A stretch of 55,815 nt of DNA from a virus: positions 1 to 55,815 of the IMG/VR virus record IMGVR_UViG_3300032291_001093. One strand, 5' to 3'. Below the pieces are notes generated by a model that saw nothing but the letters and a program-made list of their open reading frames with translations, did not search any database and was not told the DNA's origin. A program made the position numbers and the translations under genes. Shown piece after piece: positions 32,517 to 55,815 of the stretch; position 1 is the stretch's first letter, and each line of letters opens with the position of its first letter.

Positions 32517-34761
32517 AGGGGTTCTCTTTCCTCTTCGCCATTCCGCTGTCATAGTAATCTTCTTCGTCATAAGCCTCTGGGGCTGGGCCATCAATGTCAA
32601 TCCATCCAGCATCACGCAGGAAGCGCAGGGCTTGGGAGGTCGAGTCTACAAAGTCATCATGGGTTGTATCAGGAAACGCACAGAGCTGGCTCAGCAACGG
32701 CTCGACCCAATCCTTCACGTACCGTGGACGTTGGCTGCTCTCAGGCATCCAAACTCTGCCTCTAGCGAACAGCGAGGATATGACGTTCAAGCGCTGCATC
32801 TTGTCAGCCCGGCCAGGGTTGTACGCCCTTACAGGCAGATGCGCCCTCTGCAAGTCTTGGATCAAGCTGATACCTGCTGACTTGTCCTCGATCAAGATCA
32901 AGTCTACCCTCTTACGGTCTCGCCCCTCTCCATACACCACCTCGTACTCATCCAAGACCTTTGGGCGCAGATCAGGGTACTGTAGCCTGTCCTGCCAGCA
33001 GTCGATCAATAAAACGCTCATAGGGCCATCTAGAGGCTTGAATACGCCCCATGTGGATGCAGCAGTAGGGTCGTTAACCGTCTTCTCGCTAGTAGCCACA
33101 TCGTAGCTCTGCAAGATGTACTCAAACTTAGGAAACTCTTTGTTGTTGGGCCACAACCGGATCATGTCCCGCTTGATGATGCCAGACTCTTCAGGGTCGA
33201 TGATCTCAGCGTGGATCTCCTGCCGACCTAGCTTTGTACCTTCGTACTGGAGGATCTGCTTCTGAAAGCTTGGGGCAAGGTTGGCTAGATTGGTGTAGGT
33301 CGAGGCTGTAGTGACGCAGACATCGTCCCCATCTCTGCCTACAAGGTCTACGATCAGGTCTTTGGGTCGGGGGGTGGTTGTACACAGTATGCGGGTCTTC
33401 TTGCCTAGGCGCACGGAGAATTGGATCTGATCCCAAGCTTCTTGCAGGTAGTCCCAAGCGGCAAGCTCATCGCAATTATGAACAACTATGCCATTAGCAA
33501 TAAACTCATGCTCCCCCTCAACTGTCAGGTTGTATGTTAACGAGTTGGGCAAGCGTTCGGCGTGGAGTACCTCCATTTGCTTCAGTGCGATAGGTTCGTA
33601 CAGTTGACTTGCCATTACAAGCTCGGCAGCAATACTTTTGAAATCGTTTGACGGCTGTGTACTCTGATCCGCAGACAAGGCAGTTTCTTTGCTCTGGAAT
33701 GAATTTGTTATTTCTCCATTTCTCAGTGCAATCTTTTGAGCAAAACTTGCCAGCTTCTCCAGCAGAGCAAGAGATGAAGCCTTGGCCGCAATGAAGGCAC
33801 GTTGCAGACTTTGGCTTGCGAAGCGAAGCAAGGGTTTGGGCTGCTGCAAGCTTTTGCTTTTCTGATCCAGCTCGACCTGTTGAATGGAGGCTGTGATGGT
33901 CTCCCCTAGGCATTGCCACGAGATTGGACGGATCGTTATTGGTTTTATCTTCGTCTCTATGGTGCACAACCCATCCTTCGGGTATGGCTCCATGATGTTG
34001 CTCGTATATAACTCTGTGGGCATATTTGCCGTTAACGCGTTTGTAGCCACCCATACTTGATCACCAATCTTGATATCTCCAGCGGGAATCCACTGGTCTT
34101 CCACAAGTATCGGATGGTCTGAGGTAATTGTCAAGCTCGTAACACCACAATCCATTCGCACAAGATCATTTGTATTGCCAGAAACAGATGAGGCTAAGAC
34201 CTTGCGTGGCCCATGGCGAGTCATGACCATATCGCCAACAAAAATGTTCTCTATAGGTTTGGATGAACCGTCTGCCATCCATATCTTTGTGCCAGGGGTG
34301 CAACACCAAGCACCGTGCCATTGTCCACCACGGAAACGCTCAGGCTCGGATGCTGGGATGCCTTTAATAAGTGAGCCGTTCACCAGCCGTATCTCGTGGT
34401 AGCTCTTGTTGTAGTCTGCTATCAGCTCTTTGGGAATGACATTGAGCAGTCCTGAGTCACCCTCAAAGCATGTACCCCTTACGTCTGAGCTTGTGGGGGC
34501 AGCTACTAACCAGCGAGTGTTGGGCTGCTTCCATGCCCACCATCCAATCTGCTCAGCAGCAGTTCTAGTCTTACCGGCTCCGCGGCCCGCCAACAGTAGC
34601 CATATGCTGTACCAATCCCCATGGGGGAGGATCTGATGCTGGTGAGCCTGAGTCAACCACCTCATCCTCCATGCGCTTGCTATTTGCTCTTCTGTACTAA
34701 GCGTGGCAAACGCACTTTGGAACTTGGGGTCTTTCAGCGTCTCAATCAGTTGTTCCTGCAT
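32506..34761 (-). CDS. terL: Terminase large subunit, interrupted by an intein
   Basis: 751 aa precursor; 474 aa after removal of residues 153-429. ATPase domain: Walker A GRGAGKT at 59-65; Walker B DELAAW is split from its upstream GAW by the intein and restored as GAWCDELAAW; coupling motif TTTP follows. Nuclease domain (RNase H fold): Asp in SYDVATSEKT, IEDKSAG and HDDFVDST. It powers DNA packaging through the portal and cuts concatemers. ATG 34761 overlaps the small-subunit gene by 20 bases. Because the intein splits Walker B, packaging should require splicing. Confidence 0.93.
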   Translation of the reverse strand: MQEQLIETLKDPKFQSAFATLSTEEQIASAWRMRWLTQAHQHQILPHGDWYSIWLLLAGRGAGKTRTAAEQIGWWAWKQPNTRWLVAAPTSSDVRGTCFEGDSGLLNVIPKELIADYNKSYHEIRLVNGSLIKGIPASEPERFRGGQWHGAWCCTPGTKIWMADGSSKPIENIFVGDMVMTRHGPRKVLASSVSGNTNDLVRMDCGVTSLTITSDHPILVEDQWIPAGDIKIGDQVWVATNALTANMPTELYTSNIMEPYPKDGLCTIETKIKPITIRPISWQCLGETITASIQQVELDQKSKSLQQPKPLLRFASQSLQRAFIAAKASSLALLEKLASFAQKIALRNGEITNSFQSKETALSADQSTQPSNDFKSIAAELVMASQLYEPIALKQMEVLHAERLPNSLTYNLTVEGEHEFIANGIVVHNCDELAAWDYLQEAWDQIQFSVRLGKKTRILCTTTPRPKDLIVDLVGRDGDDVCVTTASTYTNLANLAPSFQKQILQYEGTKLGRQEIHAEIIDPEESGIIKRDMIRLWPNNKEFPKFEYILQSYDVATSEKTVNDPTAASTWGVFKPLDGPMSVLLIDCWQDRLQYPDLRPKVLDEYEVVYGEGRDRKRVDLILIEDKSAGISLIQDLQRAHLPVRAYNPGRADKMQRLNVISSLFARGRVWMPESSQRPRYVKDWVEPLLSQLCAFPDTTHDDFVDSTSQALRFLRDAGWIDIDGPAPEAYDEEDYYDSGMAKRKENPYAV
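33475..34305 (-). mobile_element. Intein in TerL (277 aa), inserted at Walker B
   Basis: Encoded residues 153-429 of the terL frame. Block A begins CCTPGTKIWMADGS with nucleophile Cys1; block B is LTITSDHPILVEDQW with the usual T-x-x-H; blocks F/G are LTVEGEHEFIANGIVVHN followed by Cys+1 of CDELAAW. All splice residues (Cys1, block B His, penultimate His, terminal Asn, Cys+1) are present, so splicing should be active. There is no LAGLIDADG or in-frame endonuclease; the middle about 130 aa in this frame resemble no known domain because the DNA also encodes an HNH protein in another frame. Confidence 0.92.
33518..34054 (-). CDS. HNH homing endonuclease overprinted within the TerL intein
   Basis: 178 aa on the same strand as terL but in a different frame. 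ATG 34054 follows GGTGA at 6 bases. The N-terminal HNH_3-type domain reads GYKRVNGKYAHRVIYEQHHG, then VVHHRDEDKTNN, SNL and GDHHSLH: His31/32, Asn44 and His53/54 are the likely metal-site residues. The C-terminal half has two zinc-type pairs, C86-x2-C89 with C105/C109, and C125-x2-C128 with C142/C143/C146. It begins just after intein block B and ends inside block F. It probably cuts intein-free terL to spread the intein. Both frames are open for 537 bases. Confidence 0.85.
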   Translation of the reverse strand: MGGYKRVNGKYAHRVIYEQHHGAIPEGWVVHHRDEDKTNNDPSNLVAMPRGDHHSLHSTGRAGSEKQKLAAAQTLASLRKPKSATCLHCGQGFISCSAGEAGKFCSKDCTEKWRNNKFIPEQRNCLVCGSEYTAVKRFQKYCCRACNGKSTVRTYRTEANGGTPRRTLAQLVNIQPDS

Positions 34762-43262: not shown

Positions 43263-43516
43263 CTGAATTTATTCATTCTGTTGCGGAGATCTTGGATTGC
43301 CTTCTCCCCGCGGGTTTTACGAATCTTTTCGGACATATCGTCCCACCACTCTCTAGCACCCCCAAAGCCTCTTTCATCTTTCTTTTTCTTAAAGCGCTGT
43401 ATCCACTCTCTAGCTTCGCAGTCTCTCATGTGCTCAATAGTTTCAGGGCTGATTGTGACATTTGATGGTGCGAGTCTTTCCGTAGGTACAGCTTTTTCTC
43501 TTTTTTGAGGCTTCAT
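43259..43516 (-). CDS. Basic hypothetical protein (85 aa)
   Basis: MKPQKREKAVPTERLAPSNV. ATG 43516 is in an ATGA overlap with the methyltransferase stop. The C-terminal half is basic and helical (EAREWIQRFKKKKDERGF, WWDDMSEKIRKTR). Function unknown. Confidence 0.6.
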   Translation of the reverse strand: MKPQKREKAVPTERLAPSNVTISPETIEHMRDCEAREWIQRFKKKKDERGFGGAREWWDDMSEKIRKTRGEKAIQDLRNRMNKFR

Positions 43517-44454
43517 TTTTTGCTTAAAATGTTCCAAGCTGTTGCGGCGCAGAGTGGTACTTGTCCATTTCCAATGGCTTTAAGTCTGTCCATCCTAGCG
43601 GCCACCCCATCAGCCACTCTACCCACGTTGGGTTCAGCTTCCCACTGGTCGGATGTACCGATTGACTCAGCATAATTTGCTTTCCTATTTCTACTCTGCG
43701 CTGAATTGATGGGTTGCTCATGTTTCCCCTGTCTCTGTTGTCTGATGCTTGCGGCGTGGGCCAGATGTTCTTCTTCGCCATCATTGCAAGTGTTGGGCGC
43801 TGATTTGAGCTGCCCACTGATGTATTGAATCTTCCCGTTCCAGCATCTATCGATACAAGAGTCGGAAATGTTTGTCGCTTTTTTAGCGCCCTCCTGCTGT
43901 TGCTCCCACCGTCTAATCCTGTTGTGTTGGGTGTGTGAAAGCTGTCCACGCCATTTGGCGACAATCCAGATTCTGTCCCTCTGATGGTTTGCTCCAACGT
44001 CCGCTGCTCCCAGCACTCCCCATTTCGCATCAAACCCCATTGAGGCCAAGTCTCCGAGAACTCGTCCAAGTCCCCTAGAAGTGAGCATTGGTGAGTTTTC
44101 CACGAAGACGAATCTGGGTCGTACTTCGTGAATGATGCGCGCCATTTCTCCCCACATTCCGCTTCGCTCTCCGTCAATTCCTGCGCCTTTTCCTGCTGCG
44201 CTGATGTCCTGGCACGGGAATCCTCCAGATACAACGTCAACAATTCCTCTCCAAGGCTTTCCGTCAAAGGTTTGAACGTCATCCCAAATCGGGAAAGGCG
44301 GGAGAAATCCGTCATTTTGTCTTGCGGCAAGTACGCTTGCTGGATAGGGTTCCCACTCAACTGCGCAGACGGTTCTCCATCCAAGCAGGTGTCCCCCAAG
44401 TATTCCTCCACCAGCGCCCGCGAAAAGAGCCAACTCATTTAAATTCTCCTTCAT
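43513..44454 (-). CDS. C5-cytosine DNA methyltransferase (Dcm-like)
   Basis: 313 aa. Motif I LFAGAGGGILGG (10-21), motif IV GGFPCQDIS with catalytic Cys81, motif VI ENS (119-121), motif VIII QRDRIWIVA (158-166) and motif X KAIGNGQVPLC near 295 are in the usual order. The target-recognition region lies between about 170 and 280. It transfers a methyl group from S-adenosylmethionine to cytosine C5, probably to protect phage DNA. The recognition site is unknown. ATG 44454 overlaps the helicase stop. A second long frame lies inside it. Confidence 0.9.
   Translation of the reverse strand: MKENLNELALFAGAGGGILGGHLLGWRTVCAVEWEPYPASVLAARQNDGFLPPFPIWDDVQTFDGKPWRGIVDVVSGGFPCQDISAAGKGAGIDGERSGMWGEMARIIHEVRPRFVFVENSPMLTSRGLGRVLGDLASMGFDAKWGVLGAADVGANHQRDRIWIVAKWRGQLSHTQHNRIRRWEQQQEGAKKATNISDSCIDRCWNGKIQYISGQLKSAPNTCNDGEEEHLAHAASIRQQRQGKHEQPINSAQSRNRKANYAESIGTSDQWEAEPNVGRVADGVAARMDRLKAIGNGQVPLCAATAWNILSKK
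43524..44438 (-). CDS. Alternate-frame ORF inside the methyltransferase gene (304 aa)
   Basis: Same strand as the methyltransferase but another frame, open for 915 bases from ATG 44438. It begins MSWLFSRALVEEYLGDTCLD; later segments read SETWPQWGLMRNGECWE and, near the end, NPTWVEWLMGWPLGWTDLKP. I know the second ending as a conserved C-terminal phrase annotated in many phage proteins next to or within C5 methyltransferases. No catalytic motif is visible. It may be a real overprinted gene or a shadow kept open by conservation of the methyltransferase. No separate strong ribosome site is seen. Confidence 0.4.
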   Translation of the reverse strand: MSWLFSRALVEEYLGDTCLDGEPSAQLSGNPIQQAYLPQDKMTDFSRLSRFGMTFKPLTESLGEELLTLYLEDSRARTSAQQEKAQELTESEAECGEKWRASFTKYDPDSSSWKTHQCSLLGDLDEFSETWPQWGLMRNGECWEQRTLEQTIRGTESGLSPNGVDSFHTPNTTGLDGGSNSRRALKKRQTFPTLVSIDAGTGRFNTSVGSSNQRPTLAMMAKKNIWPTPQASDNRDRGNMSNPSIQRRVEIGKQIMLSQSVHPTSGKLNPTWVEWLMGWPLGWTDLKPLEMDKYHSAPQQLGTF

Positions 44455-53685: not shown

Positions 53686-55815
53686 TCATTTTTTATCCAG
53701 CTTTTTTTTAGCATCAGACAAGTATTGCAGGGGACTTTTTGACTTTGGGGGTATTGAGTTAATTGACCCTGATCTTTTGTGGGTGCGAATTTCTTGTCTA
53801 AACTTGTCAAGCAATTTCGATCCAGCTTTTGTAGAGCCATTTCCAAGAGCAGCAACAATTTCGGAATCCAGGACATACTCCCCGTCGGCAAGCATTGCTG
53901 GAATATCGTCACTCTGTCCATCCCCAGGCCCCGCCACATGCGCTCCATGCCTAAAGTCACCACGCATTTTGCCGCCGTGGTTCATCAGTGGAACTGATAA
54001 GCCGCCTTGTGCATACTTTTGTGCTCTCACAGAACCACCAGCCGCCATTAGGGGAGGTACAAGTCCACCCTTCTTTGCAGCATAAGGCACATTCAACAAA
54101 TTATCAATAGCACTTTGGTAAACGGAACTATCCCGAGATTCGTCATCCTTTTTTCCTAAGCCTAGAATGTCATCTATAGACTCTGCTTTACCATAATTAT
54201 AGTATTTGTCCAAAGGATCGCTTGGCATTTGTGGGCTAATTTGTTGCATTGGAATACCTTCTGCGGCCGCTACGTTTCTATACAAAGAAAGAGGATCTAT
54301 AAATTGTTTTTGATTTTCTTTAGTCTTTAAAAACTGTGGGCCTAAAAATGACATAGCACCAATAGCTTGTGCAGCGTCTGATAAACCAACAAAACTAGGT
54401 TGTTTTGCAGTAGATGGCGTAGCTGCTTTGGCAGTTGTGGGCTTGGCTGTAGTAGTTGTAGTTGGTGTGGTTGGTGTGGTTGTAGTTGTGGTTGGTGTAC
54501 TTACCACCGCACCCGTATTTACATCAATTTTCTTGTCATCAATAACTACAGTACTGCTGTCAACAACTTGTACATTTTCGCCAGTTGTTTCTACTGCAAC
54601 AATTTCATCAGTAATGGGGTCTCTTGTAATTACTGCGCCGCTACCTGAAACTGTATCTGTAACGGTAGTTGTTGTTGTGCTTGCGCCGCCGCCAGAAGAT
54701 GTGCTAGTTGTAATTCCTGTATCATTATTTACATTTGTTGTAGTTTCTGTCTTGCCATCTGTTTGAGTTGTTGTAACAGTATTATTATTTGCATTAGTGG
54801 TGGTAACTGATGTTGCGCCTGTTTGAGGATCAACACTGGTTTCAACATTAATGTTTGGGTCTGCTTTAGAAACTTCTTGAGCAACAGTTGCTGGATTTTC
54901 CCCAGAATTTGTGGCATCAATTACTGTTTGATTGATGTCTTGATTGGTATTTGTCGAAACACCTTCTGATGACCCAGAAATAAAAGAATTGTCCAATATG
55001 TCAGCATTCACTTGCTCAACATTTTTTGACGTAACGTCAACTGGAGTTAATTCTGAACGATGAGCATAATTGTAAGAAGGCGTGCCAGGAACGTAGTCCC
55101 CAGTCATGCTTTTATAAAGTTCATTCAGATAGCGGGTATCTTCATCATCTCGGCTTGGATATTGACTAAGTTGATCAAAAATATCTTTTGCAAAACCTTG
55201 ATCCATTGCTTTTTTAGCAATATCAGCAATTTCAGGAACAGCAAGTGCACCACCTATCTCAACAGCATCTAAACCACCAACTTTAGAAATAATGTCTTTA
55301 AGAAGAGTGCTACTTGACTTTGCCGCAGGAACTTCTTTTGCTTCAACGTCTATAGTGGTTGTAGGCTTTGCCGCAGAGTCTTTAACTCCAAAAGCTTTGT
55401 TGAAAGCATCAAGGTCTCCAGATGTGGCATACATTTTTTCAGCCATTTTCAAGTACTCAGATGGATTTGTTTTAGCAAACAATCTCTCATATTGTTCTTG
55501 AGTTAGGTTTTGCGGTTTTCCATTAACCTCATAGCTGTAGCCTGATGTTTGATCTCCAGTAATTGGCGCAGCAACCAATTGACCCTTTCCGCTAGAGTCA
55601 TAAGAAATAACGCCAATAGATATGGGACGACCCGTTGAGTCAACCATTAATTGACCAGCTTTGGGTTGTGGAATTTCTGGCATGTAATTACCCGCAACCT
55701 GCACGTCAGGGGCTACTACAACCTCATTAATGGAACCAACATTTTCAACCGCAGTTTTTGTTGTACCCGCTACAGAATCCGCTACAGCCTTAGCTTCTTG
55801 GTCTGTTGCTCCAAG
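53686..55815 (-). CDS. DUF4214-containing large virion-type protein, C-terminal part
   Basis: This is the 3' portion of the gene that starts at 1695; a GTG at 55704 is probably internal and not a true start. After a folded-looking stretch comes a long Thr/Val/Asn-rich, low-complexity linker at about 54.4-54.9 kb with runs of T. The C-terminal 150 residues carry several KKGG or AGGS motifs and the segment DDIPAMLADGEYVLDSE, a motif I know from the C-termini of many phage tail and virion proteins. The tail ends in basic residues. The gene lies directly upstream of the three ejection-type proteins. Function is unassigned; virion structural or ejected protein is the best inference. Confidence 0.8.
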   Translation of the reverse strand, partial: LGATDQEAKAVADSVAGTTKTAVENVGSINEVVVAPDVQVAGNYMPEIPQPKAGQLMVDSTGRPISIGVISYDSSGKGQLVAAPITGDQTSGYSYEVNGKPQNLTQEQYERLFAKTNPSEYLKMAEKMYATSGDLDAFNKAFGVKDSAAKPTTTIDVEAKEVPAAKSSSTLLKDIISKVGGLDAVEIGGALAVPEIADIAKKAMDQGFAKDIFDQLSQYPSRDDEDTRYLNELYKSMTGDYVPGTPSYNYAHRSELTPVDVTSKNVEQVNADILDNSFISGSSEGVSTNTNQDINQTVIDATNSGENPATVAQEVSKADPNINVETSVDPQTGATSVTTTNANNNTVTTTQTDGKTETTTNVNNDTGITTSTSSGGGASTTTTTVTDTVSGSGAVITRDPITDEIVAVETTGENVQVVDSSTVVIDDKKIDVNTGAVVSTPTTTTTTPTTPTTTTTAKPTTAKAATPSTAKQPSFVGLSDAAQAIGAMSFLGPQFLKTKENQKQFIDPLSLYRNVAAAEGIPMQQISPQMPSDPLDKYYNYGKAESIDDILGLGKKDDESRDSSVYQSAIDNLLNVPYAAKKGGLVPPLMAAGGSVRAQKYAQGGLSVPLMNHGGKMRGDFRHGAHVAGPGDGQSDDIPAMLADGEYVLDSEIVAALGNGSTKAGSKLLDKFRQEIRTHKRSGSINSIPPKSKSPLQYLSDAKKKLDKK
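55693..55815. repeat. Terminal direct repeat, right copy
   Basis: Exact duplicate of positions 1-123. Removing one copy gives a circle of 55,692 bases. Confidence 0.95.

Follow-up and report, generated by a model that had tools for sequence, protein, structure and literature searches.

How a splicing domain and a nuclease gene can occupy the same bases in two reading frames, and whether such a layout is accidental or maintained, is the question raised by the large terminase gene (terL) of the IMG/VR virus record IMGVR_UViG_3300032291_001093. We analyzed this record over its whole length (55,815 bases, referred to here as the window), in which terL is interrupted by an intein and the middle of the intein is overprinted by a gene for an HNH endonuclease. 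All our data taken together make it very probable that this element is a mobile intein whose homing endonuclease is encoded as a separate, overprinted gene.

Anatomy of the intein and of the overprinted gene

In the window terL is a single continuous open reading frame (ORF) of 751 residues (34761-32506, minus strand), and its product matched Terminase_6N, Terminase_6C and the terminase large subunit family PHROG 38. The intein inside it is 277 residues long (C153-N429; 33475-34305, minus strand, as for all features below unless stated), lies at the Walker B region between GAW and CDELAAWD, ends in HN|C and is of the class-1 type, the +1 residue after N429 being C430. These boundaries could be placed precisely because intein-free relatives (L109-L116) read on uninterrupted as GAW|CDELAAW. 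The C-terminal profile TIGR01443 (intein_Cterm) matched at 32.7, over its cut-off of 15.6, and the residues C1 of block A, T61 and H64 of the block B TxxH motif, and H276 and N277 of the block G His-Asn pair were invariant among 28 inteins. AlphaFold modelled residues 1-88 and 240-277 confidently as a Hint fold, with low confidence in the middle, and the best match of the two Hint halves was the splicing domain of the Mtu RecA intein (E 1e-6). The complete intein with all its splice blocks, as reported in the preliminary description of this locus, is therefore borne out by the invariant block residues, the fold and the empty-site relatives. Its N-terminal splicing part, with blocks A and B, occupies 34042-34305 (predicted local distance difference test, pLDDT, above 90 across most of residues 1-88) and its C-terminal part, with blocks F and G, 33475-33588 (residues 240-277, high confidence). 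Between them, positions 33589-34041 are translated in the terL frame straight through the HNH gene and are mostly predicted to be disordered (pLDDT <50 at residues 90-166 and 187-236). These models suggest that the intein middle, about 145 residues, is mostly disordered and arises as a by-product when the nuclease gene is read in the terL frame.

The overprinted gene (34054-33518) starts with ATG directly after block B, ends inside block F and codes for 178 residues; its offset of 707 nt puts it in the +2 frame relative to terL and the intein. The coordinates and frame given earlier for this ORF hold, and its nature was confirmed by matches to HNH_3 (E 2.5e-18, 65.9 bits, cut-off 24.8) and to the HNH endonuclease family PHROG 15471 (E 2e-29). 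The profile match places the HNH_3 catalytic domain at 33896-34027. Two Cys4 clusters follow, one formed by C86, C89, C105 and C109 (33728-33799) and the other by C125, C128, C142 and C146 (33617-33682); an alignment showed both to be invariant or almost so across 44 HNH homologues, in agreement with the zinc-type clusters noted previously. When the HNH profile was compared with PDB, the homing endonuclease I-HmuI (1u3e; E 2.5e-4) was the sole significant match. Furthermore, the HNH ORF was intact and under purifying selection in the relatives. A merely chance open frame was ruled out by the HNH_3 homology, the conservation and the avoidance of stop codons described below.

Selection on the two frames and probable start signals in intein codons

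Substitutions in the overlap fell unevenly on the two frames. Among 10 distinct inteins, the differences at HNH codon positions 1, 2 and 3 were 0.28, 0.22 and 0.50, and in typical pairs with the window the HNH was about 67% identical in the overlap and the intein frame about 34%. This pattern indicates that the nuclease is a constrained protein, and the HNH frame is the better conserved of the two; the intein frame, as judged from these comparisons, seems to be constrained mainly to stay open. According to this, Leu and Val codons that would form a stop in front of A were absent from the hidden HNHs (0 of 166) but frequent in free-standing relatives (60 of 88), and xTA codons ahead of G, which form a stop in the intein frame, were likewise absent from the hidden HNHs. 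Host codon usage predicted about 3 intein-frame stops per gene and 5.0 for the window: when the window HNH protein was held fixed and its codons were drawn from the extein usage of the same phage, the mean was 5.0 stops and none of 300 draws was open. The reverse-direction codon permutation on the window gave P = 0.0002. Additionally, full-length free-standing HNH relatives in isolates had 4-12 stops in the corresponding frame. The +2 arrangement itself also keeps stops few, as against about 12 per gene in the alternative shifted frame.

Our codon analysis also pointed to expression signals for the hidden gene written within the splicing block. At the Walker B site the start ATG occurs at the identical point in 33 of 33 distinct inteins and is assembled from an A-ending Val, Leu or Ile codon followed by Trp or Cys (in the window GTA of Val84 and TGG of Trp85; ATG at 34052-34054). 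The A-ending codon is thus present at this position in 33/33 cases, compared with 10% in exteins. Upstream, a -35-like hexamer TTGACA lies in the Leu58-Thr59 codons of block B (34129-34134) and, 17 base pairs (bp) downstream, a -10-like hexamer GATACT in Pro65-Ile66-Leu67 (34106-34111). All 46 distinct Walker B-site inteins carried TTGAC(N) followed by a spacer of exactly 17 bp, and in 45 of them the -10 read GATACT, CATACT, TATACT, TATTCT or TATCCT; the exception, L242, reads CATCAG and is without HNH. The codons involved were strongly biased, Leu58 being TTG in 46/46 inteins (12% TTG in exteins) and Ile66 being ATA in 34/46 (8% in exteins). In inteins with ATT or ATC for Ile66, Pro65 is written CCT, so that the hexamer becomes TATTCT or TATCCT and keeps four matches to TATAAT. 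In an unguided scan for synonymous bias over 48 conserved codons, the top positions were Val84, Leu58, Cys53 and Ile66; apart from Cys53, these correspond to the start codon, the -35 and the -10. Cys53 was TGT in 35/35 inteins and Ala75 was GCT in 39/44, two further strong biases near the embedded promoter.

Regarding translation, the gene had earlier been credited with its own ATG and a GGTGA ribosome site; both are present, the ATG is conserved, and GGTGA (34061-34065) stands 6 nt ahead of it. Predicted pairing with the anti-Shine-Dalgarno sequence had a median of -6.6 kcal/mol at the hidden starts of 67 relatives, compared with -2.7 kcal/mol at other ATGs (P 3e-20). Codon bias and pairing together suggest that codon choice in block B is probably shaped to provide the hidden gene with a sigma70-like promoter and an ATG start, in most cases preceded by a ribosome site. 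The embedded promoter appears to be a feature of the Walker B-site lineage and some others, and not of the whole class.

Distribution, mobility and rival explanations

A search of viral contigs with the HNH protein returned 13 close loci whose HNHs were 52-95% identical to that of the window. All 13 had the HNH at +2 of a TerL intein at the same site and a terL frame without stops, and the third frame across the HNH had 6-15 stops. A broader search, in which home-made Hint and HNH profiles were also used, raised the set to 68 distinct HNH sequences at +2 of an intein and none in the intein frame; one HNH of weak similarity (44 bits), in the DNA polymerase A of L028, was at +1. About half of the +2 cases (33 of 68) share the Walker B site of the window. 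Of the remainder, most occupy the TerL nuclease motif, one interrupts a portal gene (Phage_portal_3), and a few have other hosts, Terminase_3 among them. Identity to the window HNH went down to 42% at the Walker B site and to about 30% at other sites. The arrangement is thus kept in dozens of contigs with both frames maintained, in line with the earlier proposal of a distinct way to combine splicing and homing. To avoid bias towards HNH, the Walker B site was also searched in viral contigs with the splicing blocks (Hint), a search blind to HNH: 64 of 66 complete intein records carried the HNH at +2, the other two (L191 and L242) were mini-inteins without HNH, and none of the 66 had an in-frame HNH. 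The script is not blind to in-frame HNHs, because in identical form it detected eight such inteins in bacterial genomes.

The overprinted HNH was also found in three annotated phage records, those of Rhodobacteraceae phage LS06-2018-MD07, Acinetobacter phage Highwayman and Tetrasphaera phage TJE1, in which only terL is annotated. A tblastn search of isolate phages with the intein gave no match, and isolates were found with the HNH as query. Three loci (L014, L033 and L039) bear two overprinted-HNH inteins at two sites of one terL; their second intein has another promoter-like pair, TTGA and ATAAT separated by 17 bp, 23-26 bases before the ATG. Apparent internal stops in the HNHs of L008, L013 and L014 were considered as possible decay, which was rejected as these stops sit 3-4 codons before the usual end.

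Several observations indicated that the element is mobile. The extein DNA of the window was 92.5% identical to that of the intein-free L109 and 85.6% to that of L005, and the inteins of the window and L005 were 91.9% identical; the element has therefore moved between terL alleles. Furthermore, at least 13 gains or losses were needed on a tree of 80 TerL sequences, of which 31 were invaded, and phages with TerL 96-98% identical were entirely without the element. The intein-free alleles and the horizontal transfer seen in these comparisons support homing. Hint and HNH distances were correlated (Mantel r 0.84 for the whole set, and 0.53 and 0.45 for the two site classes taken singly), indicating that the nuclease mostly moves with its element, some exchange aside. 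All these data fit a cycle in which reading of the terL frame yields a complete Hint splicing domain while the nuclease gene uses the same bases at +2. Transcription of the HNH would probably start from a sigma70-type promoter of its own, located in the Leu58-Thr59 and Pro65-Ile66-Leu67 codons, and translation probably from its own ATG at Val84-Trp85, with a ribosome site ahead of it in most relatives. The TerL precursor would splice the intein out, the separately made HNH protein would cleave the Walker B site of terL genes without an intein, and repair would copy the whole element into the cut gene.

Some of our results weigh against this reading and were taken into account. The intein profile PF14890 scored 31.8 bits on the TerL intein, under its cut-off of 35.8, and the intein middle could in principle have a role in folding. 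A shuffle restricted to the observed synonymous codons of the window was borderline (mean 1.8 stops, P 0.047), because stop-forming codons are already scarce among those observed. As related sequences are not independent, the pooled P values make the results look more certain than they are, and the breadth of the set carries more weight. In the same way, the case for the promoter rests on conservation among non-independent relatives: in the window alone it was not significant against synonymous shuffles (p 0.10), and at other insertion sites a promoter was found at p<=0.05 in only 6 of 35. The window's GGTGA, strong as the pairing is in most relatives, was predicted to pair weakly (-2.8 kcal/mol). 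Lastly, TerL splicing, transcription from the embedded promoter, HNH translation, cleavage of empty terL and copying by repair are steps that we infer.

Other explanations account for less of this evidence. Terminase-adjacent HNH proteins can be packaging components (cited in PMC12613952), and the HNH studied here might likewise serve DNA packaging and have no homing role, as free-standing relatives of its family adjoin terL in several isolates. This is improbable in view of the close relatives entirely without the element, its patchy distribution, the related elements in a portal gene and the profile match to a homing enzyme. The preliminary description had also considered the overlap as an early stage in the invasion of a mini-intein by an HNH gene. 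Such an accidental or very recent invasion, with a transient overlap, would fit the mini-inteins L191 and L242 at the same site and the free-standing HNH relatives beside terL in isolate phages, but we regard it as very unlikely: dozens of divergent inteins keep the arrangement, the dual-frame constraint and the start signals, the composite is old and diverse, and Hint and HNH distances are strongly correlated. L191 is itself a deletion derivative, namely the overlapping form after in-frame loss of about 390 bases of the HNH, with both ends of the nuclease gene still readable; here the middle has thus been lost with the intein frame staying open.

Equally little favours an HNH made only as a fusion to the N-terminal part of the intein by ribosomal frameshifting, without internal initiation. 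A single shift of the terL ribosome would reach the HNH frame, which in some inteins is open slightly upstream of the ATG, but in the window and several relatives an HNH-frame stop lies directly ahead of the ATG, and the position of both the ATG and the ribosome site is conserved. A sequencing or assembly frameshift in a canonical fusion, suggested by the in-frame nuclease of canonical inteins, is scarcely credible, as the same frame relation, with no indel involved, recurs in the three annotated phage records and in dozens of contigs assembled independently of one another. A self-splicing RNA intron or other RNA element with an HNH gene would suit HNH_3 enzymes, common in phage group I introns and including I-HmuI, but can be dismissed since the intein splice blocks are all present and conserved in frame and an Rfam scan of the whole window found no family at gathering score and no group I ribozyme core.

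With a mobile intein and a separate overprinted nuclease as the preferred explanation, the relatives also bear on origin and fate. Free-standing members of the HNH family adjoin terL in isolates such as Acinetobacter phage BP10, Lactobacillus phage CL2 and Pseudomonas phage PAE1, and are a plausible source of the overprinted nuclease. Such free-standing members sit beside the terminase genes of unrelated phages (isolates L293, L294, L295, L298, L299 and L300), and in Brevundimonas phage Poludnitsa an ORF of the family lies unannotated between terL and portal. Six HNH-family TerL loci (L004, L068, L069, L086, L087 and L092) look split: the N-intein ORF stops near the HNH start, and the C-intein was in a separate ORF wherever it was looked for. 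In the four examined for this (L004, L068, L086 and L092) the C-intein and the last part of the HNH gene still share bases, with the HNH at +2. Split inteins may possibly derive from the overprinted form, which would then provide a concrete route to them. More generally, the evidence is evenly balanced on whether overprinted-nuclease inteins are a widespread, overlooked class of phage mobile inteins, with two genes in two frames, signals for nuclease expression hidden in the splicing blocks, independent loss of nuclease and splicing, and split inteins arising when the intein frame breaks inside the nuclease gene. Annotation pipelines miss the overprinted HNH, as in the three records listing terL alone. 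The element is, in addition, a natural and replicated example of long overprinting on one strand: one frame is constrained at the protein level, the other mainly to be open and unobtrusive. Inteins that tolerate a long, apparently dispensable disordered insert could be useful in engineering.

Other features of the window were recorded as well. The virus record is probably a complete, circularising genome, because its ends (1-123 and 55693-55815) form an exact direct terminal repeat of 123 bases. Another long overlap on one strand, the minus strand (43513-44454 and 43524-44438), consists of a C5 DNA methylase (PF00145, E 2e-33) and, at +1, an ORF of 304 residues that matched PHROG 1008 (E 1e-29); relatives of this ORF in other phages extend over 97% of its length. 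Between the methylases of the window and ABMM1, differences at codon positions 1 and 3 were 0.42 and 0.45, near equal, the pattern to be expected under constraint on both frames. The segment 1533-2634 holds imperfect direct repeats of about 175-185 bases, 60-79% identical.

Comparison with known systems

In split inteins, or fractured genes, a free-standing nuclease ORF lies between N- and C-intein. The element in the window likewise has its nuclease as an ORF of its own between the intein halves, and the six split-looking loci resemble that form, but in the window both halves are in one continuous ORF of 751 residues. With the I-HmuI type of homing endonuclease, encoded in group I introns or free-standing, the hidden protein shares the HNH_3 domain; it differs in being carried by an intein and not by an RNA intron, and in its two Cys4 clusters. 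A 2025 preprint by Gosselin, Arsenault and Gogarten (10.1101/2025.01.02.630785) reportedly deals with actinobacteriophage inteins of "non-canonical architecture" and may describe the same idea, although the window and most relatives considered here are not actinophage isolates. In the literature covered, which did not extend to the content of that preprint, we found no description of a nuclease overprinted within a splicing intein or of an embedded promoter. The putative promoter and ATG in block B codons would thus be new here, while out-of-frame HNH insertions without splicing are already known.

These are the ShiLan domain and the Pacc40 insertion of mycobacteriophage DNA methylases, which carry an out-of-frame HNH and no splicing domain (PMC11855218), so that the view of nucleases as always in frame holds for canonical inteins and not for all such insertions. 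The ShiLan paper cites the Gosselin preprint regarding overlapping frames in actinophages, and its domain resembles the window element in having an out-of-frame HNH, also in the "third" frame, within an insertion open in the host frame, in its zinc clusters and in a distribution that suggests mobility (PMC11855218). ShiLan has no splicing domain and remains in the host protein, whereas the window element has a full Hint intein that would remove the by-product. In addition, ShiLan starts with GTG without a ribosome site and has no reported promoter, in contrast to the start signals in splicing-block codons proposed here.

In canonical endonuclease-containing inteins, for example PI-SceI and PI-MtuI, the nuclease is an in-frame domain of the intein. 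The window element agrees with them in its Hint domain, in the location of the nuclease between blocks B and F and in its presumed homing into an intein-free allele, but its nuclease is a separate protein read from another frame, and no in-frame HNH was found at this site. Textbook inteins thus unite splicing and homing in one polypeptide; here they appear as two genes that share their DNA but have expression signals of their own, and the nuclease could therefore be made apart from the host protein and lost without touching splicing.
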